Part shown: positions 1,619 to 62,083 of the stretch, one piece after another
Numbering within the stretch: the first letter of the stretch is position 1
How the letters are laid out: every line of letters begins with the position of its first letter
DNA from: a virus
DNA length: 64,000 bases
Reading direction: 5' to 3' (one strand)
IMG/VR virus record: IMGVR_UViG_3300030419_006654
Span: 1 to 64,000 of that record
The notes under the pieces: model-generated
Databases searched by the model: none
Seen by the model: only the letters and a program-made list of their open reading frames with translations
Told to the model about the DNA's origin: nothing
Made by a program: the position numbers and the translations under genes

Positions 1619-4600
1619 GTGAGCATTAAGATCGCGCACGTATCGGACATCCATGTCCGAAAATTAAAGTACCACAAAGAATACCGTGCAGTATTCGAGC
1701 AGCTTTACGAGAAGCTAAGAGAAGAAAAGCCAGATATTATTGTTAATACCGGCGACACGTTCCACACCAAATTGGATATGTCACCGGAGGCAATTAAGAT
1801 GATGAGTGAGTTGTTTGTAGGATTAGCAGACATAGCTCCGTATCACATGATTCTTGGTAATCACGATATGAATTTAAAGAATAGCGGAAGATTGGATGCT
1901 ATTTCTCCAATCGTAGAGTACCTCGATCATCCCAATATTTATTTCCATAAGTATTCTAGCGTTGTAGAGGTCGCCGAAGGCATAGATTTGCATGTGTTAT
2001 CTATTGTAGATCCCGAAAATTGGCAACCAGAACTTCCAGAAGATCGTGTTAACATCGCCTTGTATCACGGATCGGTGGTTGGATCTGTTACAGATAGCGG
2101 ATGGATGATGACTCACGGTGACATCGATATGGAGACGCTCGAAAAATACGACTACGCATTGCTTGGGGATATCCACAAGACCGACCAGAAAGTGGACAAC
2201 GAAGGTAGGGCAAAATATCCCGGCTCACTTGTGCAACAGAATCATGGTGAATCGAACGACAAGGGATACCTTATTTGGGACATTGTTGACAAAAGCACGT
2301 GGGGAACTAGACACGTTCCTCTGGTTAATCCGAAGCCGTTTATTACTATTGAACTCACTCGCAAAGGGCGAATGCCTAAAAACACGGATATCCCATCCGG
2401 CGCCCGGCTTAGGCTGGTTAGCAACAACAACTTACCGCTGGATATTATGCGCCGCGCCGTTGATATCGCAAAACACAGATTTAAGCCAGAAAGTATATCT
2501 TTTTTGAATCGAGCATCTGGAGAGAGAGGCAGTGTAGAATCACTAACTGATGGTCTAAGAACAGAGAATCTTAGGGATGTCACAATTCAAGAAGAGTTGA
2601 TGGAAGAATATCTTGTGGATTATGAGGTGCCAGAGCACACCATGGAAAAGATATATGATTTAAATCGAAAATACAATAAGCTCGTAGAAGATAATGAGGA
2701 TATTTCTCGAAATATTAATTGGAGATTGGTCAATTTTGAGTTTGATAACTTATTTAATTATGGGGAAGAAAACAGTGTTAACTTTGGTGAACTTGGCGGG
2801 ATTGTCGGGATTTTCGGCAAAAACTTTTCTGGAAAAAGCAGTATTATTGATGCTGTGCTTTGGACTCTTTTTAATTCAACCTCGAAAAATGAGCGCAAGA
2901 ATCTCAATGTTATTAACCAGAATAAGGAATACGGCTCTGGAAAAGTAAAGATTGAGATTGGAGATAAGCTTTACACTGTTGAGAGAAGATCTGATAAATA
3001 TACCAAACGCTTGAAAGGACAAGAAACCCTTGAAGCAAAAACAGAGCTTAATTTTGAAGTCCATGACAGGGTGATGGGAGAGGTAAGATCTCTTAATGGT
3101 CTCACAAGAACACAGACGGATGCAAACATTAGGAAGCAGTTTGGAACCCTGGACGACTTCTCAGTGTCCTCCTTGTCTTCGCAACATGGAGCACTCTCCT
3201 TTATTGATGAGGGCTCAACTCGAAGAAAAGAAATCATTGCCAAATTTTTAGATCTGGAATTTTTTGAACAAAAGTTTAAGTTAGCAAAAGAAGACTCCAC
3301 CGATCTCAAGGGCGCCCTTAAGAGAATGGAGTCTAAAAATTATGATGAAGAAATAGGCAATGCGCTCGCTGAGCTTTCTGGTACGAGAGAAAAGCTCGAA
3401 AAACAACGGAATAGGTGCATGGCTCTAAAAGAGCAGCTTGAAGAACTCAATTCCACGTGTACGCAAACCCAGGAAATGATTGATTCAATTCCGGCTGAAG
3501 TTATCGATATAGCATCAATATCAAATCAAATTAGAAAAAAAGAAAACGAAGTAACAGCACTAAACATTAAGATTGGCGAAGATGAGGGAAGCTTAAAAAC
3601 CAAACAGGGGGTTTATGAAAAAATCATCGGCTTCTTGGGAGACTTCGATTTGCAAAAATTTGAATCTCTACAAAGGCGCATCTTCAAACATCGCGAAGAG
3701 TTGAAAGAAAAGGAAGATAATCTTGACAAATTGTTAGAGATGCATACCAACATCTTAAAGAAGCAGAAATTGCTCAACGAACACAAGTATGATCCGGAGT
3801 GCCACTATTGTTGTGAAAATGAATTTGTTAAGGAAGCTCACTTGGCTGTCGCAAACAAAGGGGGTGTTGAAGAACAACAATCACAAACTCTAAAAGACAT
3901 AGAATCAATATCTGCCGAGATAGACGATCTAAACCCCGTGGATGTCGACACTCAGTTAGACAGGTATCACAAGATGGAAAACAGCAAACACACAGTTTCG
4001 TCAGAGATAGCTGATTTAAATTTGGAAATAGAAAGAAACAAGAACTCTATACACACCATTGAATCTGAACTGGCTGCTTTGACAGCAAAGAGAGATGAGT
4101 ACGAGGAAAACAAGGAGGCAATAGAGAATTTAGAGTCGCTACTGGTTCAACTTAACGAGTGTCACTATAAGATTAAACGAACCAACTCTGCAATTGATAC
4201 ATGCGAGAACTCTACTCTCGAACATGTTAAGATGGTGGGCTCTCTTGAACAAAAAGTGGAAAACGCCCAAAACCAGAAGAAAGAGTACGAGGATTTACAA
4301 GTGGAATACGCCGCATATGACTTATATATGCAGTGCATGCATTCAAATGGGATCGCCTATGATATCATCAAAAAGAAAATCCCAGTTATCAACTCTGAAA
4401 TAGCCAAGGTGTTGGCCAATATTGTAGATTTTGAAGTCTTTTTTGAGGCGTCTGGCAACAAGTTTGACATTTTTATTAAACACCCAAGATACGACGAGCG
4501 CCCTATCGAGATGGCATCAGGAGCAGAGAAGTCACTATCTGCAATCGCTATCCGTCTTGCGCTTTTAGGAGTATCGTCTCTCCCTACCGGAGATATATTT

Positions 4601-4786
4601 GTACTTGACGAGCCCGGTACTGCACTGGATGAAGAAAATATGGAGGGTTTTATTAGGATCTTGGAACTAATTAAAGTGTATTTTAAGAACGTTTTGCTTA
4701 TCTCGCACCTTGATTCGCTCAAAGATTGTGTTGACATGCAAGTAGTAATTGAAAAGAAAGACGGATATGCAAGAGTAAACCAATAG
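1619..4786 (+). CDS. SbcD-SbcC (Mre11-Rad50 / gp47-gp46) fusion nuclease-ATPase
   Basis: One uninterrupted 1055-residue protein carries both subunits of the recombination nuclease that T4 encodes as separate genes 47 and 46. Residues 1-330 are the calcineurin-like phosphoesterase: D10/H12, GD at 45-46, GNHD at 80-83, H150 and GDIH at 183-186 are the metal-binding motifs. Residues 368 onward are the Rad50/SbcC ATPase: Walker A GKNFSGKSS at 400-408, a coiled coil, a zinc hook CHYC at 728-731, the ABC signature SGAEKSLS at 967-974, and Walker B VLDEP at 995-999, then a second coiled coil between hook and head. The GTG start has GGAGAG upstream. It should process DNA ends for replication-coupled recombination, together with UvsX and the gp32-like SSB encoded later. 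A strong promoter precedes it. Confidence 0.93.
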   Translation: MSIKIAHVSDIHVRKLKYHKEYRAVFEQLYEKLREEKPDIIVNTGDTFHTKLDMSPEAIKMMSELFVGLADIAPYHMILGNHDMNLKNSGRLDAISPIVEYLDHPNIYFHKYSSVVEVAEGIDLHVLSIVDPENWQPELPEDRVNIALYHGSVVGSVTDSGWMMTHGDIDMETLEKYDYALLGDIHKTDQKVDNEGRAKYPGSLVQQNHGESNDKGYLIWDIVDKSTWGTRHVPLVNPKPFITIELTRKGRMPKNTDIPSGARLRLVSNNNLPLDIMRRAVDIAKHRFKPESISFLNRASGERGSVESLTDGLRTENLRDVTIQEELMEEYLVDYEVPEHTMEKIYDLNRKYNKLVEDNEDISRNINWRLVNFEFDNLFNYGEENSVNFGELGGIVGIFGKNFSGKSSIIDAVLWTLFNSTSKNERKNLNVINQNKEYGSGKVKIEIGDKLYTVERRSDKYTKRLKGQETLEAKTELNFEVHDRVMGEVRSLNGLTRTQTDANIRKQFGTLDDFSVSSLSSQHGALSFIDEGSTRRKEIIAKFLDLEFFEQKFKLAKEDSTDLKGALKRMESKNYDEEIGNALAELSGTREKLEKQRNRCMALKEQLEELNSTCTQTQEMIDSIPAEVIDIASISNQIRKKENEVTALNIKIGEDEGSLKTKQGVYEKIIGFLGDFDLQKFESLQRRIFKHREELKEKEDNLDKLLEMHTNILKKQKLLNEHKYDPECHYCCENEFVKEAHLAVANKGGVEEQQSQTLKDIESISAEIDDLNPVDVDTQLDRYHKMENSKHTVSSEIADLNLEIERNKNSIHTIESELAALTAKRDEYEENKEAIENLESLLVQLNECHYKIKRTNSAIDTCENSTLEHVKMVGSLEQKVENAQNQKKEYEDLQVEYAAYDLYMQCMHSNGIAYDIIKKKIPVINSEIAKVLANIVDFEVFFEASGNKFDIFIKHPRYDERPIEMASGAEKSLSAIAIRLALLGVSSLPTGDIFVLDEPGTALDEENMEGFIRILELIKVYFKNVLLISHLDSLKDCVDMQVVIEKKDGYARVNQ

Positions 4787-4796
4787 GAGATACTCA

Positions 4797-5936
4797 ATGT
4801 CAGACGAAAACGATAACAATGAATTTGATTTTCTGCCTCCCGCAGAACCACCTCCTGCCTTTGCGCAGGAAAAAGACAGCTACCATGAAGCAGTAGATGC
4901 AGAAGACTTCGGCATGGTTGAGGACTTCGGATTACAGATGGAATACTCTGATGAAGATTTACTCCCCGAGAATACAGCACCCTCATCTATTAATGTTGGT
5001 TTTGTCGGTGTCGGCGGTGGAGGCAATAAAATGGCGAATGCGTTTATTGAACTTGGATTCAACAAAACGCTACTCGTAAATTCAACAGGTAAAGACATTC
5101 CAAAGAATGTAGAAGAGGATCACGTTGTCCTCATCCCCGATTCAGACGGGATTGGAAAAAACGTAGACTATGGAAAAGAGGTATTAAGTCAAAATGGTGC
5201 AATTGTTGAAGATGCTCTCCGCATCAAACTCGGTAAAGTTGATTGGTTATTCGTCCTTGCTGGCGGTGGTGGTGGGACCGGTAGTTCTGTTACCGCTCTT
5301 CACTCTGTCTTTGAGCGTTACATGCGCTCTGTGCAGTCAAGTGGTAAGGTCGTTTATATAGTTTCATGGCCGACCGCACAAGAGAACCTTAACCCCACGA
5401 TCGCTCGTAATGCACTGACGCTGGCAAATGATGTAGCACAGCATCCGCACATTATACTTGATAACGAACGATCCACACGCTTACTACGCGGCAGAATCGG
5501 TATGCTTGGCATGTACCCGGTCGCTAATACACAATTTGCCAAATCGTTAGCCCAAGTTTTAAAACTCTCCACTGAGGATTCACCGATCCAATCTTTCGAT
5601 AGCAAGGATTTGGAAACATGCTTGGGCAATAACGGCAGAGCCTTTATGGGTTCAACCATGATAAAGGATCCAAATACTGCAAAGCTTGGATCGGTGATCC
5701 TCCACAACTGTATGAATCGTTCTGCGTGTCCTCCACCCAAGGGTAAGGCTGCGGCAGGCTCATTAGTGTTGGTTGTGTCAGAAGAGATGGTGGCTGACCC
5801 CAAAGTCAGCAAGAATATTGAGTCGGCAATCGCTTATGTCGGCGGCCGATGCGAGACACTTTTCTCTGGCGTTTATGTCAGAAAGAATGTGCCCGGTCTG
5901 ATTGCGATACTAAGTATGAATGGATTAGCAACATAG
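4797..5936 (+). CDS. Tubulin/FtsZ-superfamily GTPase
   Basis: A 379-residue protein with the full set of FtsZ-like nucleotide loops. After an acidic, probably disordered N-terminal 60 residues come the T1 loop GVGGGGNK at 71-78, the tubulin signature GGGGGTGSS at 156-164 (T4 loop), an N223 in LDNERS matching the FtsZ T6 asparagine, and a T7-like loop with D268 and D271 followed by GRAFMGS, like the FtsZ segment after its catalytic aspartates. It is therefore likely able to polymerise and hydrolyse GTP. Related phage tubulins (PhuZ, TubZ) form filaments that position DNA or capsids. It follows the SbcDC fusion by 10 bases with a good AGGAGA site, so the two are probably co-transcribed. It lacks an obvious membrane tether or a conserved FtsZ tail. 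Confidence 0.9.
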   Translation: MSDENDNNEFDFLPPAEPPPAFAQEKDSYHEAVDAEDFGMVEDFGLQMEYSDEDLLPENTAPSSINVGFVGVGGGGNKMANAFIELGFNKTLLVNSTGKDIPKNVEEDHVVLIPDSDGIGKNVDYGKEVLSQNGAIVEDALRIKLGKVDWLFVLAGGGGGTGSSVTALHSVFERYMRSVQSSGKVVYIVSWPTAQENLNPTIARNALTLANDVAQHPHIILDNERSTRLLRGRIGMLGMYPVANTQFAKSLAQVLKLSTEDSPIQSFDSKDLETCLGNNGRAFMGSTMIKDPNTAKLGSVILHNCMNRSACPPPKGKAAAGSLVLVVSEEMVADPKVSKNIESAIAYVGGRCETLFSGVYVRKNVPGLIAILSMNGLAT

Positions 5937-43100: not shown

Positions 43101-43263
43101 TGCCGGCGGAAAGGCAAAAGATGACAAGTTAGCAAAGAAAGAAGAGCCATCAGAGGTGTCGGCCGGCCGCCTTGCGGGATTGGCTTTTGTGCAAGATTTA
43201 ATGATAGGAGATTCCGAGACAGCCCCACCGCCATCGGGAAATCCAGAGGCAGGAATTAATTAA
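40132..43263 (+). CDS. Large baseplate protein, hub-like C-terminal domain
   Basis: A 1043-residue protein, not assigned to a named family. The N-terminal 220 residues are helical and Ala/Lys-rich. Middle portions contain beta-rich domains. Residues about 820-970 include ANPHIYPGEYIFIDPKGW and TDFGIGGYYMVVNAEHSYG followed by FRAVWVAQ, similar in pattern to the gp27/GpD-type hub domain (a loading tube-like domain with Gly-Tyr-Tyr-x-Val). The tail is Lys/Ala-rich and acidic at the end. It overlaps the next gene by one base (TAATG). A central hub function is likely but unproven; no lysozyme domain was recognised. Confidence 0.6.
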   Translation: MPDPDQPSYMSFTVSKDTDLDDKSTRSSTASAAASAYQKAMDHYIKNDTKTKWVYIGSQDTSSPGNMNNFMQRTKDDTYYTDLRLKMFDKQNAFYKMSAEELRAALGDPVNMQKFAEKAYAEFLADKAVADAFREKGMQPPATDPRNPAKADVDALSDEQKAAREAAAKEALKEGQQKAAEVIQTIPKARSVKFKEQCFLLAKIFQLVRYKIEDIESEKGGEQKPLPYLSGNGNACLMVHSDPFAFINRMAVYNSQKELLQLPTQEISNLQPKIRLFKVVENDRGDEMEQEYRFAGNAGEDLENLLKSKDKRGFGTGIESFDLTFEGGDPFAAKRMIKGRLVLHANSFDEILKIRGTGRGSVPYSYADLALKTGGTGYKNIKQKINVHAHGQNIGDPYSLDFRLKAVVGYATPSSFVGDSFSDAINNSFFTVNLIPTTHEFKFQEDGTMKFIINYQAYTETFFNQSGFSVFTGDKKTNTNIMGRKLKLQDLNETCDAKAVAKFKKEELNAVKTDRRSVISSIVGNLFSEQKIRFIQLPPSQLKKFNTEGPFYELKNEKLKIGTLPSSETTKDDVKKDNNKKEKDDNNKKVRKKASNPSGNYISFFYLSDLVDIVLKGMESKLANYSEIVQVAAKGNKVNPYLMHNELVRGEKYYNEFRKLRLVLGPIEIVNPSDPSETIVVSLGDLPVSIKYFTAWLASETVEKDRRDFNLSSFMKKLVTKLLNSFINDDSCFSSTAKQSVKLRETVFTAYNNDPDFPSDTVTQLISELRNAKPANPYISRLFTEVGNAAGMRPILNVGGAENSPIYGDLKDEVNYLIFYASRTKPMGLLTGIYEDDLSMGVHHYTIGSDRGIVKTIQLDRDTRVSAKEARFEQEGYDGLQQLREIYHANVECYANPHIYPGEYIFIDPKGWVPYLDPEISERLNVSNLTDFGIGGYYMVVNAEHSYGIANATTKFRAVWVAQITRDSEEPQKRLTSPQKKKAAAAKCAIAGGKAKDDKLAKKEEPSEVSAGRLAGLAFVQDLMIGDSETAPPPSGNPEAGIN

Positions 43264-44549
43264 TGTCTGAATATTACGTAAAAGATAACACAGAGAATGC
43301 AAGAAACACATTCAACAAGAAAGCTTTTTATAAGATAGATACGGCCAATGAATTTTACACAAATTTGGTGGATTTCAATTTTGCAGAAAAACAACTTTAC
43401 GGACGCGTCGATCGAAATTTTGTGCCAATGGTAGTAAGAAATTACGTTTTACAGCTAAAGCGTGTTATCGAAGTAGATGATCCAAAAGAAGATGTGCGCG
43501 CACTAAATTTTGTAGCGGACGCGTTCAATAATTTGGCCCAGTATTTTAAAAAAAGCAACCTCAATAGAAAAATTGACACAGGAGATAAATATCTAGCACA
43601 ACTTAAGGGATTTAAAGGTTACGACAACACAAAAAAGAACTATAGAGCACATTCGCAACAATATATGCAAGCGCTTGAAGAAATGTTTCAAGATGATGAT
43701 GTTAAGTTTATTTCATTTGAAAAATTCATATATTTGGTATTGCCTTATATATTACAAGCCGGCCGCAAAAGACCCTTCACGTTGCCGGCATACGTAAAGA
43801 GTCACTACTGCTCAGCAAAAAATTCAGGACTTGTTATCGAAATTTCTGATCTTGATCCTTCAAATGATGAAGCAAAGATTGAGCTTTTTTATAATAGCAA
43901 GAATTGGGAATTTTTTCTAAATGCTTGTGCCACTTTTGGGTTTATGGTTGACAAGAATATTCCATGGCGACTGGTGGCGGACGTTGGTTCTCCACAAATG
44001 TTGAAGTATGCCGAAAAATATGGTATCATGGAAACAGATCAGATTATCGCAACAGCTTACGAAAAGGCTAGCTCAATTTATTTTGCCAACTTTAAGAGGC
44101 AACTTTTTGAGGCTTACAACAGATTAAAAACTCCGCAATATTTCGAAATGACCGACGTGAGGCCGTACGAGAGTACGAGAACCATCACAAGAACGCCAAT
44201 CGAATATAGCCAAGAAGAGTTTTTCTCTATCTTTGGTGACTCTTATTTCGTAAATTTATACTGCAGAATTCGTTTCGCTGAGGAAGAATCAGACTATTCT
44301 ATAGAAAAACAAGAAAAAATCATTGACAACACGATTGAATTATGTAAAACTAATCTTGAGAAGGGCTTAACTTCTTTTGAAATTCTTTTGAATAAACCAT
44401 TTGACTATATCGGTTCATTGACTTATATTAGTAATAGAATAGAACAAATAGAAAAAGATCCTCGTCCGGATGACACGCCGGATGTCCAGACTATCACAGA
44501 ACCAATCGAAGAGTTTATCGACGACGATGGCGCAATGGAAGAAATTTAG
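43263..44549 (+). CDS. Uncharacterised structural protein at end of the tail cluster
   Basis: A 428-residue protein rich in Phe, Tyr, Asn and Lys, with mixed helical and strand segments and no membrane helix. The C-terminus is acidic (EEFIDDDGAMEEI). Coupling to the large baseplate gene (TAATG overlap) and the short 6-base gap to the following polymerase gene place it as the last gene of the tail module. Aromatic-rich content fits a virion protein. I do not recognise a family. Confidence 0.55.
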   Translation: MSEYYVKDNTENARNTFNKKAFYKIDTANEFYTNLVDFNFAEKQLYGRVDRNFVPMVVRNYVLQLKRVIEVDDPKEDVRALNFVADAFNNLAQYFKKSNLNRKIDTGDKYLAQLKGFKGYDNTKKNYRAHSQQYMQALEEMFQDDDVKFISFEKFIYLVLPYILQAGRKRPFTLPAYVKSHYCSAKNSGLVIEISDLDPSNDEAKIELFYNSKNWEFFLNACATFGFMVDKNIPWRLVADVGSPQMLKYAEKYGIMETDQIIATAYEKASSIYFANFKRQLFEAYNRLKTPQYFEMTDVRPYESTRTITRTPIEYSQEEFFSIFGDSYFVNLYCRIRFAEEESDYSIEKQEKIIDNTIELCKTNLEKGLTSFEILLNKPFDYIGSLTYISNRIEQIEKDPRPDDTPDVQTITEPIEEFIDDDGAMEEI

Positions 44550-44555
44550 CAGAAA

Positions 44556-45746
44556 ATGTATTTTCAATCAATAGACGACAAACAAGAATGTGTCGGCATC
44601 TATAAGGACGGAATTCTACACTTTGATGAAATGCCGACAGAACTCAACAGAACATGGAAATACTCAGCTTCCGACAGCAGGGGCGAGGCTGAATATGCTT
44701 GGCTGTACTGTGGCGGCATGCCCTTAGAGGCAGTTTGTCCCGAAGAATTACAAGAGGATTTAAAAAATATCCAAAAAAGAATGCGCGCATACAAAAAATC
44801 TTTTAAAATTGCAAAGCTTGATTTTCGCCAACATTGTTTTTTTGATTTGGTTCCGCATGATTTTTTGATTAGATTTTTGGAAATAAAAAACTTAATCACA
44901 CAACACGTTTTTGAAAATTACGAGAAACCAAAAAACTATGCACACCTTTGTGGCGCTCAAAAATTGTTACACAAGATAAAGCACCAAGAGCTTAACTTAA
45001 ATAATGAAGATTGTCGCAGTCTGTTCGTTTCTTCGATACATCGCAACTCTGCCAAGAGACTGCTCAACGGGCCCAAGCACATTGACTATAACCTATTTGG
45101 AACAGTTACCGGCCGACTGACTACCGGCAATAATTGTTTTTCTATTTTGACTATCAATAGGCAATTGCGAAAATTAATCAAGCCCAAAAACGATTGGTTT
45201 TTGTCTTTGGATTACAACGGCGCGGAAATTAGAACATTCTTAGCGCTGTCTGGCAAAGAACAGCCCGAATATGACATACACATGTGGAATGTAAATAATA
45301 TTTTTAAAAATAGACCCAACATGAATCGAGAATCTGCAAAAACGCTCCTATTTTCATGGCTTTATAATGCAGAATCAAAAGACTTAGACACAGAATATTA
45401 TGATCGTGATGCTATAGTAGACCAATATTATGAGGACGGCCACATCAATACGATTTTCGGCCGCAAAATAAAAGTTGACGAACGCCGAGCATTCAATTAT
45501 ATTATACAAAGCACTACAAGCGATTTGGTAATGGACAGGGCAGTGGAGATCGATAAAATACTAAAAAATAAGAAATCATTTGTTTCTCACATGATGCACG
45601 ATGAGTTAGTTATAGATTTGTGCGATTCTGAGCGCGATTTGGCCCCTGTTCTCAAGGAAGTGTTCGCAAAAAACAGGCTGGATAGATTTGTGGTCAACAC
45701 AAAGGCCGGCCAAAATTATTACGACATGGAGTCTCTGAAAGTATGA
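44556..45746 (+). CDS. Short A-family DNA polymerase (polymerase domain only)
   Basis: A 396-residue PolA-type protein with no 3'-5' exonuclease domain. Visible motifs in order: TGRLT at 185-189, motif A LDYNGAEIR at 218-226 (D219 catalytic; the usual SQIE is NGAE), DIHMWNVNNIF at 240-250, motif B region from R258 and K262 to Y270, GRKIKVDERRAFNYIIQST at 302-320, and motif C MMHDELVID at 346-354 with H348, D349 and E350. All catalytic positions are present, though motif B (AKTLLFSWLYN) and motif A are divergent. Start ATG 44556 is 6 bases after the tail cluster. A gap-filling or specialised polymerase role is likely, since a full DnaE is encoded at 58.6 kb. Confidence 0.9.
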   Translation: MYFQSIDDKQECVGIYKDGILHFDEMPTELNRTWKYSASDSRGEAEYAWLYCGGMPLEAVCPEELQEDLKNIQKRMRAYKKSFKIAKLDFRQHCFFDLVPHDFLIRFLEIKNLITQHVFENYEKPKNYAHLCGAQKLLHKIKHQELNLNNEDCRSLFVSSIHRNSAKRLLNGPKHIDYNLFGTVTGRLTTGNNCFSILTINRQLRKLIKPKNDWFLSLDYNGAEIRTFLALSGKEQPEYDIHMWNVNNIFKNRPNMNRESAKTLLFSWLYNAESKDLDTEYYDRDAIVDQYYEDGHINTIFGRKIKVDERRAFNYIIQSTTSDLVMDRAVEIDKILKNKKSFVSHMMHDELVIDLCDSERDLAPVLKEVFAKNRLDRFVVNTKAGQNYYDMESLKV

Positions 45747-46606
45747 TCTCGGTCGTAGGAATCGGCAATGCGGCATCTGCAATTGCTGAAAAATTCAAAC
45801 AACAAAAAAACTATAATGTCTATCTGCTCAACAATAAAGTCGAGAGAAACAGCAAATATAAATATAAACTGAAGGTTTTTGATAAGCCAGAGGAATACGA
45901 ACAAAACATTCCAGATCTAAAGAAGTTTTTCGCGGACCTGAATGATCATGTGCAGGTTTTTGTTGTAGGAGCCTCGTATAGTTCAAACTATTCTCTGGGA
46001 ATATTACAGCAAATCAAGAACAAGAAGATCGATCTGTTTTATATTAAGCCGGATATTGAACTTATTACCGGCATACCAAGATTATTGGAAAACATAGCGT
46101 TTGGCGTCCTGCAAGAATACGCAAGATCGGCCCTATTCAATACAATTACCATAGTCTCTAACCTAGAAATAGAAAAAAACATACAAAACATCTCGATTAA
46201 GAGCTATTATGATTCTTTGAACAGCACTATTTTTTCCGCCGTGCATTACCTAAACTTTTTCAATCACACTGAACCTGAAATTGGTCAGGTTTCTAGACCG
46301 CCGGAATCGAATCGAATTCGCTCAATTGGCATGTTAGATCCAAAAAGTCTTAAAGAAAAATGGTTTTTTGAGCTTGACATGCCTCGCAATATATGTTATT
46401 ATTTATGTATAAATGAGGAAAAATTAGAGAACGAAACTGGCTTACATAAGCGCATTGTAGATGTTTTAAAGGAAAAGCCTCGCAATGCATTCAAGAAAAT
46501 TTCATATGCAATATATGGAACACACTTACAAGACTTTGGGTTTTGCGTTGCCCACACTAACGCAATACAACAACAAAAAACTCTTGACAAGCTAGAGCAA
46601 GAGTGA
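45743..46606 (+). CDS. Degenerate tubulin/FtsZ-like protein
   Basis: A 287-residue protein I read as a divergent relative of FtsZ. It begins VVGIGNAASAIAEKF, like the T1 strand-loop-helix, and VFVVGASYSSNYSLGILQQI at about 72-91 aligns with the T4 region but has lost the Gly-rich GGGTGSG signature. FYIKPD at 99-104 corresponds to the FtsZ VTKPF strand, N140 to the T6 asparagine, and YYDSLNSTIFSAVHYL at 155-170 to the AFGAANDVL-AVQGI helix. The loss of the glycine loop implies it no longer binds GTP in the standard way. It overlaps the PolA gene by 4 bases. An accessory or capping partner of the GTPase at 4.8 kb is one idea. Fold prediction would be decisive. Confidence 0.55.
   Translation: MISVVGIGNAASAIAEKFKQQKNYNVYLLNNKVERNSKYKYKLKVFDKPEEYEQNIPDLKKFFADLNDHVQVFVVGASYSSNYSLGILQQIKNKKIDLFYIKPDIELITGIPRLLENIAFGVLQEYARSALFNTITIVSNLEIEKNIQNISIKSYYDSLNSTIFSAVHYLNFFNHTEPEIGQVSRPPESNRIRSIGMLDPKSLKEKWFFELDMPRNICYYLCINEEKLENETGLHKRIVDVLKEKPRNAFKKISYAIYGTHLQDFGFCVAHTNAIQQQKTLDKLEQE
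46374..46402 (+). promoter_or_regulatory. Internal sigma70-type promoter upstream of the SSB gene
   Basis: GCTTGACA (TTGACA at 46374-46379) and TATTAT at 46397-46402 are 17 bases apart inside the 3' part of the tubulin-like gene. It would give an upstream start for the SSB gene. Coding constraint may explain part of the match. Confidence 0.5.
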
Positions 46607-46664: not shown

Positions 46665-47435
46665 ATGTCAATCAATATGGAACTAATGAGAAAGAAGCTT
46701 GCCACACTTCGTGGTGAGGGAGATAGAGGAGAAAATTCGGTTTGGTTCAAGCCCGATGAAGGCGAACAAGTAGTTCGCATCGTGCCCACCAAGGACGGAG
46801 ATCCCCTCAAGGAGATGTATTTCCACTATAACGTAGGGGAACACAGAGGCGGCATTCCATGCCCCAAGCGCAACTTCGGAGAGAAGTGCCCAATTTGTGA
46901 ATTTGCATCTTCCGTTTGGAAGGAAGGCGTAGACAACAATGATGAGGAAAGCAAGAAGCTAGCTAAGTCGTTATTTGTGCGTGCGCGATTCTTTTCCCCT
47001 GTAATCGTTCGTGGCCGCGAAGAAGAGGGAGTCAAAATGTACGGCTACGGAAAACGAGCATACGAATTACTTTTGGGGTATATTCTAGATCCAGAATACG
47101 GAGATATTACTGACATCATGGAAGGCACCGATATCTCCCTTACATATACGAAACCCACTACCCCCGGTGCCTATCCGCAGACAAGCCTCAAGATGCGCAG
47201 AAACTCTTCGCCCCTATTGGAAGATGAAGAGGCCATCCCCGCCCTCCTCGATGGCATCCCTGAGTTCAACACTCTCTTCGAAAGGAAGACACCAGAAGAG
47301 ATTGATGCAATTCTTGATGAGCAACTATCTGGAAATCTTAGCGCCGAACAGCGCTCCTCAGAGACAACACGCTATGATAGCGCTGATTCAACTAGCGCAG
47401 TAGACAAGGCGTTCGATGAGTTGATGGCCAACTAG
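46665..47435 (+). CDS. Single-stranded DNA-binding protein (gp32-like)
   Basis: A 256-residue protein of the T4 gp32 plan. A basic N-terminal cooperativity-like segment (ELMRKKLATLRG) precedes an OB-fold region with WFKPDEGEQVVRIVP, and a zinc module GIPCPKRNFGEKCPICEFA (C at about 66, 75 and 78 plus a His upstream) replaces the gp32 zinc site. The C-terminal 50 residues are acidic and end AFDELMAN, the tail used for protein contacts. It should coat ssDNA in replication and recombination and work with UvsX encoded 1 kb downstream. It starts after AGGAGAAAAAAC and is followed by a pseudoknot. A strong promoter and inverted repeat precede it. Confidence 0.92.
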   Translation: MSINMELMRKKLATLRGEGDRGENSVWFKPDEGEQVVRIVPTKDGDPLKEMYFHYNVGEHRGGIPCPKRNFGEKCPICEFASSVWKEGVDNNDEESKKLAKSLFVRARFFSPVIVRGREEEGVKMYGYGKRAYELLLGYILDPEYGDITDIMEGTDISLTYTKPTTPGAYPQTSLKMRRNSSPLLEDEEAIPALLDGIPEFNTLFERKTPEEIDAILDEQLSGNLSAEQRSSETTRYDSADSTSAVDKAFDELMAN

Positions 47436-49579: not shown

Positions 49580-50533
49580 ATGCGTAACTATGGCTATGCC
49601 TGTATCAATCAAGGCTTTTCGTCGCTGCCAAAAACGCAGCGCATCACAACCAACCGTACGATGATCAAACGTACGTTTCACGATCGCGGCATCGAGTATG
49701 CGTCAGAGTTGGCGCTACAGAATCTACGCGATCTACGTAAGATTCTTGAGTGGAATCTTGAGCACGATATTTACTTTTATCGCCTGTCATCCGATATTAT
49801 CCCGTGGGCCAGTGAGTACGACCTACAGGATATGCCCAATTTCGGTGCTATCCATGCTGCAGCACTTTCTGCCGGCAATTTCGCACGCCAGCATAACATG
49901 CGCCTTACGTCACATCCGGGACCCTTTAACAAGCTCGCATCACCCAAGGAGCGTGTGTTTCAGCTTACCAAGACTGATTTGTCTGTACACGGCGATTTGT
50001 TCGACCTTATCGGCTTGCCGCGCACACCATACGCTAAGTTAAATATTCACGTCGGTGCCGCTTATGGAGATAAGCCCTTCGCCCTCGATAACTTCTGTCG
50101 CAATTTCGAACGCCTGCCTGACAACGTACGTACGCGGCTCACGGTTGAGAACGATGACAAGGTCTCACTGTACTCTACCAAAGAGTTATACGACGGAGTA
50201 TACAAGCGCATTGGCATTCCAATTGTGTTTGACTATCACCACCATATGTTGCACCCCGGCGGCCAGTCTGAGCAAGAAGCTCTTGAACTAGCGCTGTCTA
50301 CATGGGGTGATGTCAAGCCGGTTGTTCACTACGCAGAGTCCCGCTCTGTCGAACACAACAATCCCAAGATTAAGCCACAGGCTCACTCCGACATGATTCG
50401 CAACCCCTTCGACGACTACGGCCATGATCTCGATGTGATGATCGAAGCTAAGCACAAAGAAATAGCACTTTTGGAATATCGCAACACCATGCACCAAGAG
50501 AAAACAGAATCACCCGATTGGTGGATGGCGTAA
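49580..50533 (+). CDS. UV damage endonuclease (UvsE/UVDE family)
   Basis: A 317-residue TIM-barrel endonuclease of the UVDE type. The start MRNYGYACINQGF, the segment IIPWASEYDL, LTSHPGPFNKLASP, LNIHVGAAYGDK, LTVENDDK and IVFDYHHHMLHPGG contain the conserved His, Glu and Asp residues of the metal-binding site, with HYAESR near the C-terminus. The enzyme nicks 5' to pyrimidine dimers and other lesions; T4 uses the unrelated DenV. It has its own strong promoter and a GTAGGAGGG site and is coupled to the exonuclease gene that follows, which could remove the nicked strand. Codon choice looks somewhat more G/C- and CGT/CGC-rich than neighbours, perhaps reflecting later acquisition. Confidence 0.93.
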   Translation: MRNYGYACINQGFSSLPKTQRITTNRTMIKRTFHDRGIEYASELALQNLRDLRKILEWNLEHDIYFYRLSSDIIPWASEYDLQDMPNFGAIHAAALSAGNFARQHNMRLTSHPGPFNKLASPKERVFQLTKTDLSVHGDLFDLIGLPRTPYAKLNIHVGAAYGDKPFALDNFCRNFERLPDNVRTRLTVENDDKVSLYSTKELYDGVYKRIGIPIVFDYHHHMLHPGGQSEQEALELALSTWGDVKPVVHYAESRSVEHNNPKIKPQAHSDMIRNPFDDYGHDLDVMIEAKHKEIALLEYRNTMHQEKTESPDWWMA

Positions 50534-58651: not shown

Positions 58652-61600
58652 ATGAATCGAATCGATTCCAAGATTAAGTTTGTTGGACTGCACGCCCACA
58701 GCGTGGCAGGTTCTATTTTTGACGCTATCGGATATCCACAGGCTCATATGGATTTTGCATATGAGAATGGCTGCGATGCTTTGGCTCTCACCGATCATGG
58801 AAACATGAATGGCTTGGCATATCAAGTTTTGCATGCCAAGAAGATGCAAGAGGCAGGCAAAGAGTTTAAGCCCATCTTTGGCTGCGAGGCATATTTTACC
58901 CCCTCTATCGCAGAATGGCGCGAGGCCTATGATCAAGCGATGGAAGACAAGAAGAAAGCCCGGGCCATCAAGAGAGATGCCCAATCTGGCGCCACTGTTG
59001 AGGATGAAGGCGACAGCAAGAAGACTCAAGGCATTCTCAAGCGTCGTCGTCATCTGGTTTTGCTGGCACAGAATCAAACGGGCCTGAACAACCTATTTAA
59101 GCTGGTGTCGGAATCATATCAGCCCGAGAACTTTTACCGATATCCACGTATTGATTATGCGCTTCTTAAGAAATATAATGAAGGTATCATTGCTTCCTCT
59201 GCTTGTCTTGGCGGGGTGTACGCTGGAAACTATTGGGAAAATAGAGAAGAGGGCTCTGAAGCAGTGCTCAACGCTATGCGTGAGTCAACACGACGTATGG
59301 TCGATATTTTCGGTGATAGGTGGTATGCCGAGATACAATGGAACAACATCGAAGAGCAGCACGAACTTAACCAATATGTGATTCAAGTTGCTCAAGAATT
59401 TGGCGTTGGACTGGTCACTACAGCCGACAGTCATTACCCCAACCCTGACGCTTGGAAGGACAGAGAGCTTTACAAGCGTCTTGGTTGGCTTGGTAAAGGT
59501 CGACCCTCATGGGCCGAGGAAGAATCTCAACTCCCCGAGGGTGTTGAGGAAATTGGATATGAATTGTATCCAAAAAATGGTGACCAGATCTGGGAAAGCT
59601 ACAAGCAGTACTCACAATCCACGGGGTTTGAGTATGATGACGATGTAGTCTTGAAAAGTATTGAGGAATCTCACAGGATCGCTTTCGAGCGGATTGAGTC
59701 ATTCCTGCCCGACAATACAGTTCGCCTTCCCGAATTCGTAGTGCCAGCCGGCTTTACAGCAACACAGGCGCTGGTAAATTACGCACTCGAAGGACTCAAA
59801 GACAAAGGCCTGCACACCAATAAGGAATACACAGACCGCCTCAAACAAGAACTAAACGTTATTGATGACCGCGGCTTTTCCAAGTACTTCCTGACAATGA
59901 AGTCCATTGTCGATGTTGCAACAGACATGATGCTTCCGGGCCCCGGCCGCGGCTCAGCAGCCGGCTCACTGGTGGCATATGCCCTAAACATCACTCAGGT
60001 AGATCCCATTAGGCACGGCCTTCTGTTTTCTCGCTTCCTACGCTCGGACGCCACGGACTATCCCGATATTGACTACGATGTGTCGGACAGCATGGCGCTC
60101 AAAGAAAAGCTGGTAGAGATGTGGGGCGAAGATTGTGTTGCGCCCATCTCTAACTGGAACACCCTCCAGTTAAAGTCTTTAATTAAGGATATTTCCAAGC
60201 TGTATAATGTAGAGTTTACAGAGGTCAACACAGTTACATCTATTATGATTCGCGAAGCAACCCCAGAGGCCAAGCGCAAGCACGGTATCAAGGCTGGCGT
60301 ATATGCTCCAACATGGGAAGAGGTGATGGAATTCTCGCCCACGTTGCAGGCATACCTTAACAAATACCCCGCAGTCAAAACACACGTTGAGGGTCTAGTC
60401 GGTCAGGTTCGCTCTTGTTCGCGACATGCAGGCGGTGTCGTTATCGCAGAAAACCTAGACAAGAGCATGCCGCTGATTAATTCAGGTGGAGTGCGTCAGG
60501 CGCCGTGGTCTGAGGGTCAAAACGTTCGACATCTTGAACCAATGGGTTTCATCAAATTTGATTTGCTCGGACTTTCTACACTCAAGATGATGGAAGGTGC
60601 AATCTATCACATTCTCAGAAGACATCACAATATTGAAGATCCGACATTTACACAGATTCGAGAATATTATGATAAGCACTTGCATCCCGATGTGATCGAT
60701 CTAAATGATCAGGAAGTTTACAGAAACATTTTTCACACAGGTAAATGGGCAGGGGTTTTCCAATTCACAGAGCAAGGAGCCCAGCAGTTCTGCGTACGCG
60801 CCAAGCCAACCAATATCATTGATGTGTCTGCTATCACGGCTATCTACCGGCCCGGGCCCTTGGCGGCAAACGTGCACGATGAATACGTAGAAGCCAAAGA
60901 AAACCCACACTACATCAAATATTTGAACGACGATGCGCATGATATTACACAAGAGACGTTCGGATTCCTTATTTTTCAGGAGCAGATAGCACTGTTGGCA
61001 CACAAGCTTGGCGGCCTGACTCTTGACGAAGGTAATATGCTCCGCAAGGTCTTGACCAAGAAGGGCACCGGCAAAGGCTCCGTTAAGGGTAAGCTGCACG
61101 ACAAGTTTATTACAGGATGTGCTAAGAACGGGATTGCTCGCGATTCCGCACAAGCACTGTGGGATAAGTTTGAATACTTCTCAGGATACGGCTTCAACAA
61201 GTCACACGCTGTGTCCTATTCAATTATCTCGTTTCAATGTGCATGGCTGTGGAATTATTATCCTGCAGAGTGGATGGCTGCATTCTTGGACAAGGAGCCT
61301 GAGAGTCGCAAAGAGAAGGCAATCAATATCGCTAAGAAATTTGGCTTTGACATTGAGCCCCTTGACGTTAATAAATCTGGCACCGTGTGGGAGATTAGCG
61401 ACGATGGAAAGACACTCATCCAACCTCTCACCTCTATTAAGGGCTTGGGCCTCGCAGCCATCGAGCAGGTTCTAGAAAATAGGCCGTTCATGAATGCTGA
61501 AGACCTGCTTTTCCGCGAAGAGGTCTCATACAGCAAGCTAAACAAAAAAGCATTGGATGCTTTGTGTCGCGGCGGCGCTCTAGATTTGATCGTTGATGAT

Positions 61601-62083
61601 AGATTCACAGGGAGAAAGCATTTTTGGTCCACCTGTATTGTGGATCGGCCAAAGAGTCTCAAGAAGTTTCAAGAAAATCTAGAACTTTATCGACCCGAAG
61701 GAGACTTCTCAGAAGAAGAGATCATTCAATTTAAAACAGATTTAACGGGTATGTTTCCGATGAATTTGGTTATTAGTCCAGAAACCATCGAAAAGTTGCA
61801 AGAAAAATTTGTCCCACCGATATCGGAATTTGATCCATCGTTACAACTTTGCTGGTTTATCCCCCGCAAGATTGTACCCAAGAAGACCAAGAATGGAAAG
61901 CTTTATTGGATTGTTGAAGTAATCGATTCCAACAACGAATCAACTAGAATAAGATGCTGGGGTGTCAAGCCAGAGAAAGATCGAATTCATCTTAATAGGC
62001 CGTACATGGCTAACTTAAAATATGATCCCAATTGGGGATTTAGCACGTACGCTATTGGAAAAACATTTAGGCAATTAGGATAA
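58652..62083 (+). CDS. dnaE: C-family DNA polymerase III alpha subunit (DnaE-like)
   Basis: An 1143-residue replicative polymerase with the full DnaE plan. The PHP domain has H14 and H16 in LHAHS and D48-H49 in LTDHGN. The polymerase core has GPGRGSAAG at 430-438 and the catalytic aspartates in PDIDYD (472, 474) and KFDLLGL (D637). A helix-hairpin-helix region around 965-990 and an OB fold near the C-terminus (LYWIVEVIDSNNESTRIRCWGVK) complete the protein. Length is close to E. coli DnaE (1160). The C-terminal tau-binding region of the host enzyme seems shortened. It is probably the main replicase of this phage, since no B-family polymerase is in the window. It has its own promoter. Confidence 0.95.
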   Translation: MNRIDSKIKFVGLHAHSVAGSIFDAIGYPQAHMDFAYENGCDALALTDHGNMNGLAYQVLHAKKMQEAGKEFKPIFGCEAYFTPSIAEWREAYDQAMEDKKKARAIKRDAQSGATVEDEGDSKKTQGILKRRRHLVLLAQNQTGLNNLFKLVSESYQPENFYRYPRIDYALLKKYNEGIIASSACLGGVYAGNYWENREEGSEAVLNAMRESTRRMVDIFGDRWYAEIQWNNIEEQHELNQYVIQVAQEFGVGLVTTADSHYPNPDAWKDRELYKRLGWLGKGRPSWAEEESQLPEGVEEIGYELYPKNGDQIWESYKQYSQSTGFEYDDDVVLKSIEESHRIAFERIESFLPDNTVRLPEFVVPAGFTATQALVNYALEGLKDKGLHTNKEYTDRLKQELNVIDDRGFSKYFLTMKSIVDVATDMMLPGPGRGSAAGSLVAYALNITQVDPIRHGLLFSRFLRSDATDYPDIDYDVSDSMALKEKLVEMWGEDCVAPISNWNTLQLKSLIKDISKLYNVEFTEVNTVTSIMIREATPEAKRKHGIKAGVYAPTWEEVMEFSPTLQAYLNKYPAVKTHVEGLVGQVRSCSRHAGGVVIAENLDKSMPLINSGGVRQAPWSEGQNVRHLEPMGFIKFDLLGLSTLKMMEGAIYHILRRHHNIEDPTFTQIREYYDKHLHPDVIDLNDQEVYRNIFHTGKWAGVFQFTEQGAQQFCVRAKPTNIIDVSAITAIYRPGPLAANVHDEYVEAKENPHYIKYLNDDAHDITQETFGFLIFQEQIALLAHKLGGLTLDEGNMLRKVLTKKGTGKGSVKGKLHDKFITGCAKNGIARDSAQALWDKFEYFSGYGFNKSHAVSYSIISFQCAWLWNYYPAEWMAAFLDKEPESRKEKAINIAKKFGFDIEPLDVNKSGTVWEISDDGKTLIQPLTSIKGLGLAAIEQVLENRPFMNAEDLLFREEVSYSKLNKKALDALCRGGALDLIVDDRFTGRKHFWSTCIVDRPKSLKKFQENLELYRPEGDFSEEEIIQFKTDLTGMFPMNLVISPETIEKLQEKFVPPISEFDPSLQLCWFIPRKIVPKKTKNGKLYWIVEVIDSNNESTRIRCWGVKPEKDRIHLNRPYMANLKYDPNWGFSTYAIGKTFRQLG

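Follow-up and report, generated by a model that had tools for sequence, protein, structure and literature searches.

A predicted degenerate tubulin-fold protein encoded between the DNA polymerase and single-stranded DNA-binding protein genes of uncultured marine T4-like phages

The stretch of DNA analyzed here, referred to as the window, comprises positions 1 to 64,000 of the 65,458-base uncultured virus record IMGVR_UViG_3300030419_006654, which encodes T4-type terminase, portal, capsid, and sheath proteins. A real gene at positions 45743–46606 (X, or P0001) starts with ATG and encodes a 287-residue-long protein; this gene with its loops, residues, and domains given below, the adjoining polymerase and SSB genes, and the gene of P0002 with its loops lie on the plus strand. 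X is preceded by the gene of a compact, 396-residue-long family-A DNA polymerase (polA; 44556–45746; Pfam DNA_pol_A PF00476, 2.8e-17), the end of which it overlaps by four nucleotides, and is followed after 58 nucleotides by the gene of a gp32-like single-stranded DNA-binding protein (SSB; 46665–47435; Pfam gp32 PF08804, 5.9e-14; phrog_1192, 7.3e-25). The polymerase apparently lacks exonuclease domains. The conserved gene upstream of polA (43263–44549) encodes 428 residues and matches no known family. The replication and repair region of the window also includes a UvdE-type UV endonuclease (49580–50533; Pfam UvdE, 6.5e-58), and a second, large DNA polymerase, probably of the DnaE type according to its size, is encoded at 58652–62083 (phrog_405, 9.3e-230).

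Relatives of X were found in 394 stretches in a first scan of IMG/VR and in at least 548 stretches in a later one, in which 548 of the 599 pattern-matched viral stretches listed encode a relative. The uncultured marine phages that carry them are T4-like and form a large group. The relatives that were examined are 47–80% identical; after the removal of duplicates, 158 unique full-length relatives and the window protein formed an alignment of 159 sequences. The dN/dS ratio of X is ~0.05 (eight pairs), and the gene is under purifying selection. The gene of polA is located upstream of X at every locus with a readable neighbor (212 loci and four minus-strand copies), and that of SSB is located downstream at every such locus (230 and four minus-strand copies). 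The stop of polA and the start of X overlap by exactly four nucleotides in 215 of 216 loci. The ATGA start context of X provides no evidence, because it is forced by Met-Ile; however, the position of the polA stop does count. The median identities to the window are 59% for X and 56% for polA, and two genes upstream of polA diverge faster, with 31–37% identity. The relatives in 548 of the 599 listed stretches, the low dN/dS ratio, and the invariant order of the neighbors place the open reading frame far beyond chance. X is a replication-module gene, which agrees with the tie to DNA metabolism that had been proposed from its two neighbors in the window. A caveat to the role proposed for X is that many unrelated functions share such an operon position.

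Searches for X returned no match by tblastn among 50,697 annotated phage records, in the GTDB genome contigs (one genome per bacterial or archaeal species), or in PHROGs. No Pfam or NCBIfam family scored above its curated cut-off, and a search of the X profile against PDB sequences gave nothing significant, with a best E-value of 0.21.

The structure of X has been predicted by AlphaFold2 from a single alignment with 40 relatives (Neff ~2.4), with a pLDDT of 88 and a pTM of 0.87. The order of secondary structure elements in the model, S1-H1-S2-S3-H3-S4-H4-S5-H5-S6-H6-H7-S7-S8-H10-S9-S10, is that of tubulin and FtsZ. The C-terminal tubulin domain, assigned by DSSP of the model, includes S7, S8, H10, S9, and S10 but lacks H9 (residues 192–272; 46316–46558). 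The best 50 Foldseek matches of the model in the PDB are all FtsZ or TubZ and span its whole length, with a best E-value of 1.4e-11 and TM-scores by query length of 0.62–0.71. In the viral library BFVD, five matches have E-values of at most 0.001, and two of these carry the name of FtsZ or of a cell-division protein. The profile of the N-terminal domain of X aligned in register with ten FtsZs across 161 columns (hhalign, P 0.009). Among 200 column-shuffled FtsZ profiles, one reached the same score and none did so over a comparable length; the column shuffle is the control that was counted, as the reversed and shifted control gave a single constant score. The pairwise hhalign comparison of X with FtsZ has a low probability and is not independent proof. 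By its predicted fold and element order, X is a member of the tubulin/FtsZ superfamily, as the preliminary description had proposed.

A fold that is clearly not that of tubulin, such as a simple Rossmann dehydrogenase, had been named as the outcome that would speak against this assignment. A plain Rossmann dehydrogenase or reductase without kinship to tubulin could be read from two weak matches under the curated cut-offs, one to F420_oxidored in the first 40 residues (0.11) and one to GARS_N in residues 2–118 (0.0045). However, there are no dehydrogenases among the best 50 PDB fold matches, which are all FtsZ or TubZ, and the tubulin element order extends into the C-terminal half of X. The dehydrogenase reading is thus refuted as far as prediction reaches, and we regard it as extremely improbable. 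A weak partial match to CARF (PADLOC, 5.9e-4, residues 38–106) was rejected, because it spans a Rossmann-like piece only, whereas the full fold of X is that of tubulin.

The T1 glycine, the T4 signature, the T5 proline, the T6 asparagine, and the T7 asparagine or aspartate are common to FtsZ and tubulin (PMC8456036). In FtsZ, T4 contacts the phosphates, T5 the ribose, and T6 together with H7 the guanine base (PMC8456036). Equivalences between X and FtsZ are based on sequence alignment and DSSP order. The segments on which the comparison with FtsZ had originally been based, VVGIGNAAS (residues 4–12), VFVVGASYSSNYS (residues 72–84), FYIKPD (residues 99–104), N140, and a helix at residues 155–175 identified as H7, were all found at their places in X. 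The T1-loop equivalent is GIGNAA (residues 6–11; 45758–45775), aligned by hhalign to VIGVGGGGGN of FtsZ, and its glycine G8 is invariant in all 159 sequences. The T3 region is shortened in the alignment to FtsZ. In place of GGGTGSG, the T4-loop equivalent has the sequence GASYSSNY (residues 76–83; 45968–45991), aligned to GMGGGTGTGAAP of Escherichia coli (Ec) FtsZ; G76 is invariant and residue 80 is serine or threonine in 157 of the 159 sequences. Column counts over the 159 sequences contain no glycine-rich loop, so that the loss of the glycine signature, noted previously for the window protein, extends to the whole alignment. The T5-loop equivalent is PDIELITGIPR (residues 103–113; 46049–46081; alignment counts and hhalign). 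P103, D104, and G110 are invariant, and residue 113 is lysine or arginine in 148 of the 159 sequences. G110 and R113 align to G139 and R142 of Ec FtsZ, and P103 is two residues off the T5 proline P135 in the computed alignment.

Two asparagines that may read the guanine base are present in all 159 sequences: N140 (46160–46162), the T6 asparagine corresponding to N165 of Ec FtsZ, and N160 (46220–46222) in the core helix H7, corresponding to N186 of Ec FtsZ and D187 of Sa FtsZ, both according to the hhalign register. The invariance of this putative base-reading pair had been overlooked in the preliminary description. By contrast, the stretch where T7 and H8 are expected (residues 176–191; 46268–46315) has no helix H8 in the model between the end of H7 at residue 175 and the start of S7 at residue 192, and no invariant aspartate or asparagine occurs at the T7 site in alignment columns 174–191 of the 159 sequences. 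The subunit interface of tubulin, FtsZ, and phiKZ TubZ is composed of T7, the base of H8, and S9 (PMC3678025). Because T4, T7, and H8 are lost, X is not a canonical member of the family, and the model makes it unlikely that it forms ordinary protofilaments.

A second tubulin-related protein, P0002, is encoded at positions 4797–5936 of the window. Its 379 residues match PF00091 (1.4e-7), TIGR00065 (9.1e-12), and FtsZ in the PDB (3.1e-10), and we conclude from its sequence that it is a genuine CetZ/FtsZ-like GTPase of the tubulin family, and a candidate partner of X. The alignment of its relatives has an invariant T4 glycine loop, GGGGGTGSS (5262–5288), within AGGGGGTGSS. The T7 loop SFDSKDL (5592–5612), aligned to NLDFADV of FtsZ, contains the invariant aspartates D268 and D271, and the base-reading asparagines N223 and N244 are also invariant. 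The AlphaFold2 model of P0002, based on a shallow alignment, has a pLDDT of 55.5, and its best fold match is still CetZ (3zid); because of the low confidence, no details are drawn from it. The conservation of P0002, with 85–98% identity, is unusually high among phage proteins and includes an N-terminal extension of ~60 residues; the median for the adjoining nuclease is ~60%. This nuclease, encoded directly upstream by a single 1055-residue open reading frame (1619–4786), is a fusion of SbcD-like (residues 1–335) and SbcC-like (residues 372–1054) parts and thus combines the functions of T4 gp47 and gp46.

The genes of X and P0002 are both present in all nine contigs spanning the two sites (the window, G007, G009, G010, G011, G017, G018, G023, and G028, with G017 counted across its contig ends), and X is located ~39–43 kb downstream of P0002 in contig coordinates. 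PF00091 matches exactly one gene in each of eight of those contigs and never X. The remaining contigs end at or before the place where the second site is expected. The intact tubulin-family GTPase that the preliminary description had noted in the window therefore accompanies X in the other contigs as well. In G017, a 195,459-base contig of L152, the two genes have their usual spacing only when it is counted across the contig ends; this suggests an almost complete genome of ~195 kb with circular permutation. A profile search, which distant forms could escape, detected neither gene in five phages or phage genomes whose capsid or terminase genes are related. The profiles of X and P0002 have no significant similarity in hhalign, and an origin of X by duplication of P0002 is therefore not claimed.

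We propose that X is a degenerate tubulin/FtsZ-fold protein that binds guanine nucleotide without hydrolyzing it and serves as a monomeric or single-contact accessory at the replication machinery, and consider the chances of this reading to be evenly balanced. X would be translated together with the compact polymerase, just before the phage SSB. It may have kept the guanine-base-reading part of the pocket, N140 and N160 and probably a T5 contact, while by prediction and sequence comparison it has lost T4, the loop for the phosphates, and a portion of T3, together with the catalytic loop T7 and H8. Such a protein could still bind guanine nucleotide but would not hydrolyze it, and would not form ordinary protofilaments. 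Acting alone or through a single contact, it would instead serve the polymerase/SSB module as an accessory or adaptor that depends on nucleotide, and one of its faces could possibly dock onto P0002. The basis of the proposed nucleotide binding is a small number of residues, and invariant residues can be structural.

The possible docking leads to P0002 as a partner. The preliminary description had envisaged a two-component cytoskeleton in which X is the catalytically dead partner of P0002, which can be pictured as a filament in which X, as an inactive subunit, alternates with P0002. The tubulin folds of the two proteins and the co-occurrence of their genes are consistent with such an arrangement; however, X lacks T7 and H8, which together with S9 build the interface (PMC3678025), P0002, with both T4 and T7 of its own, should be able to polymerize without a partner, and the similarity of the two profiles is not significant. 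The loss of T7 and H8 in particular makes an alternating filament very unlikely. A nucleotide-binding protein at the replisome, or a partner for one filament end, fits better. The two-component cytoskeleton is retained as a hypothesis in an altered, one-ended form, in which X would serve at the replicating phage genome to nucleate or cap a P0002 filament at one end, or to anchor that end. The nucleotide-bearing face of X would then bind the T7 face of P0002, comparable to gamma-tubulin or a TubR-type adaptor. Only one end of X could dock, because the T7/H8 face is missing and the base-reading residues are kept, and a partner that forms filaments is consistent with the intact T4 and T7 of P0002. 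The joint presence of the two genes in nine of nine contigs and their joint absence from the five related phage genomes also fit; nevertheless, this co-occurrence is weak evidence, because both may be core genes of one clade. T3 and T4 of X are altered, although both loops contribute to the docking face, and P0002 is nearly frozen (85–98%), whereas X varies freely (down to 47%). We therefore regard the one-ended partnership as rather doubtful. Its most specific version, a phage 'gamma-tubulin' in which a non-hydrolyzing X, made together with the polymerase, seeds or anchors the end of a phage tubulin filament on replicating DNA, is improbable.

It is also possible that X has put the tubulin fold to a new use that involves no nucleotide, such as that of a replisome scaffold, either structural or binding DNA or protein. 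The loss of the phosphate loops is in agreement with this, as are conserved residues beyond the pocket, namely W207, R215, H235, K243, and D264–G266. However, the invariance of G8, N140, N160, and G110 in 159 sequences exceeds the needs of a vestigial pocket, and a nucleotide-free scaffold is an unlikely explanation. The non-hydrolyzing guanine-nucleotide binder at the replication machinery is the reading that we prefer.

X shares with FtsZ (TIGR00065; PF00091) and TubZ the order of strands and helices, the T1 glycine, the T6 and H7 asparagines, and the T5 glycine and lysine or arginine. It differs from them in the absence of the GGGTGSG loop T4, T7, H8, and H9, and in the shortened T3, and its identity to them is ~10%. 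A cellular precedent is the FtsZ of Nitrosopumilus maritimus, which has neither the GTP-binding motif nor the T7 loop and does not polymerize (PMC3684127). Like X, it is a degenerate relative of FtsZ in which both motifs are missing; however, it is a thaumarchaeal protein encoded outside phages and replication operons, and it is likened to X by features alone. The phage tubulins that have been reviewed, such as PhuZ and TubZ, are filament-forming GTPases, and PhuZ is an intact one that centers the phage nucleus (PMC3678025, PMC13282480). X resembles PhuZ and phiKZ TubZ as a tubulin-fold protein encoded by a phage; by contrast, their catalytic and interface parts are missing from it. P0002 and gp138 of Bacillus phage G belong, like X, to the tubulin superfamily and have invariant base-reading asparagines. 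Unlike X, P0002 still has the glycine loop T4 and the aspartates of T7, and it has no significant similarity to X.

No prior report of a degenerate phage tubulin was found in the open-licence literature, and the predicted structure suggests that X and its relatives form a new family of proteins with a degenerate tubulin fold, encoded in a replication operon. If this is correct, the tubulin fold has been reused beside or inside the replisome of a widespread group of marine phages. X and P0002 provide a small, well-defined pair for asking whether phages have evolved distinct tubulins for nucleation or capping. If X were to act as a phage 'gamma-tubulin', it would link replication to a cytoskeleton in phages other than those that form a nucleus.
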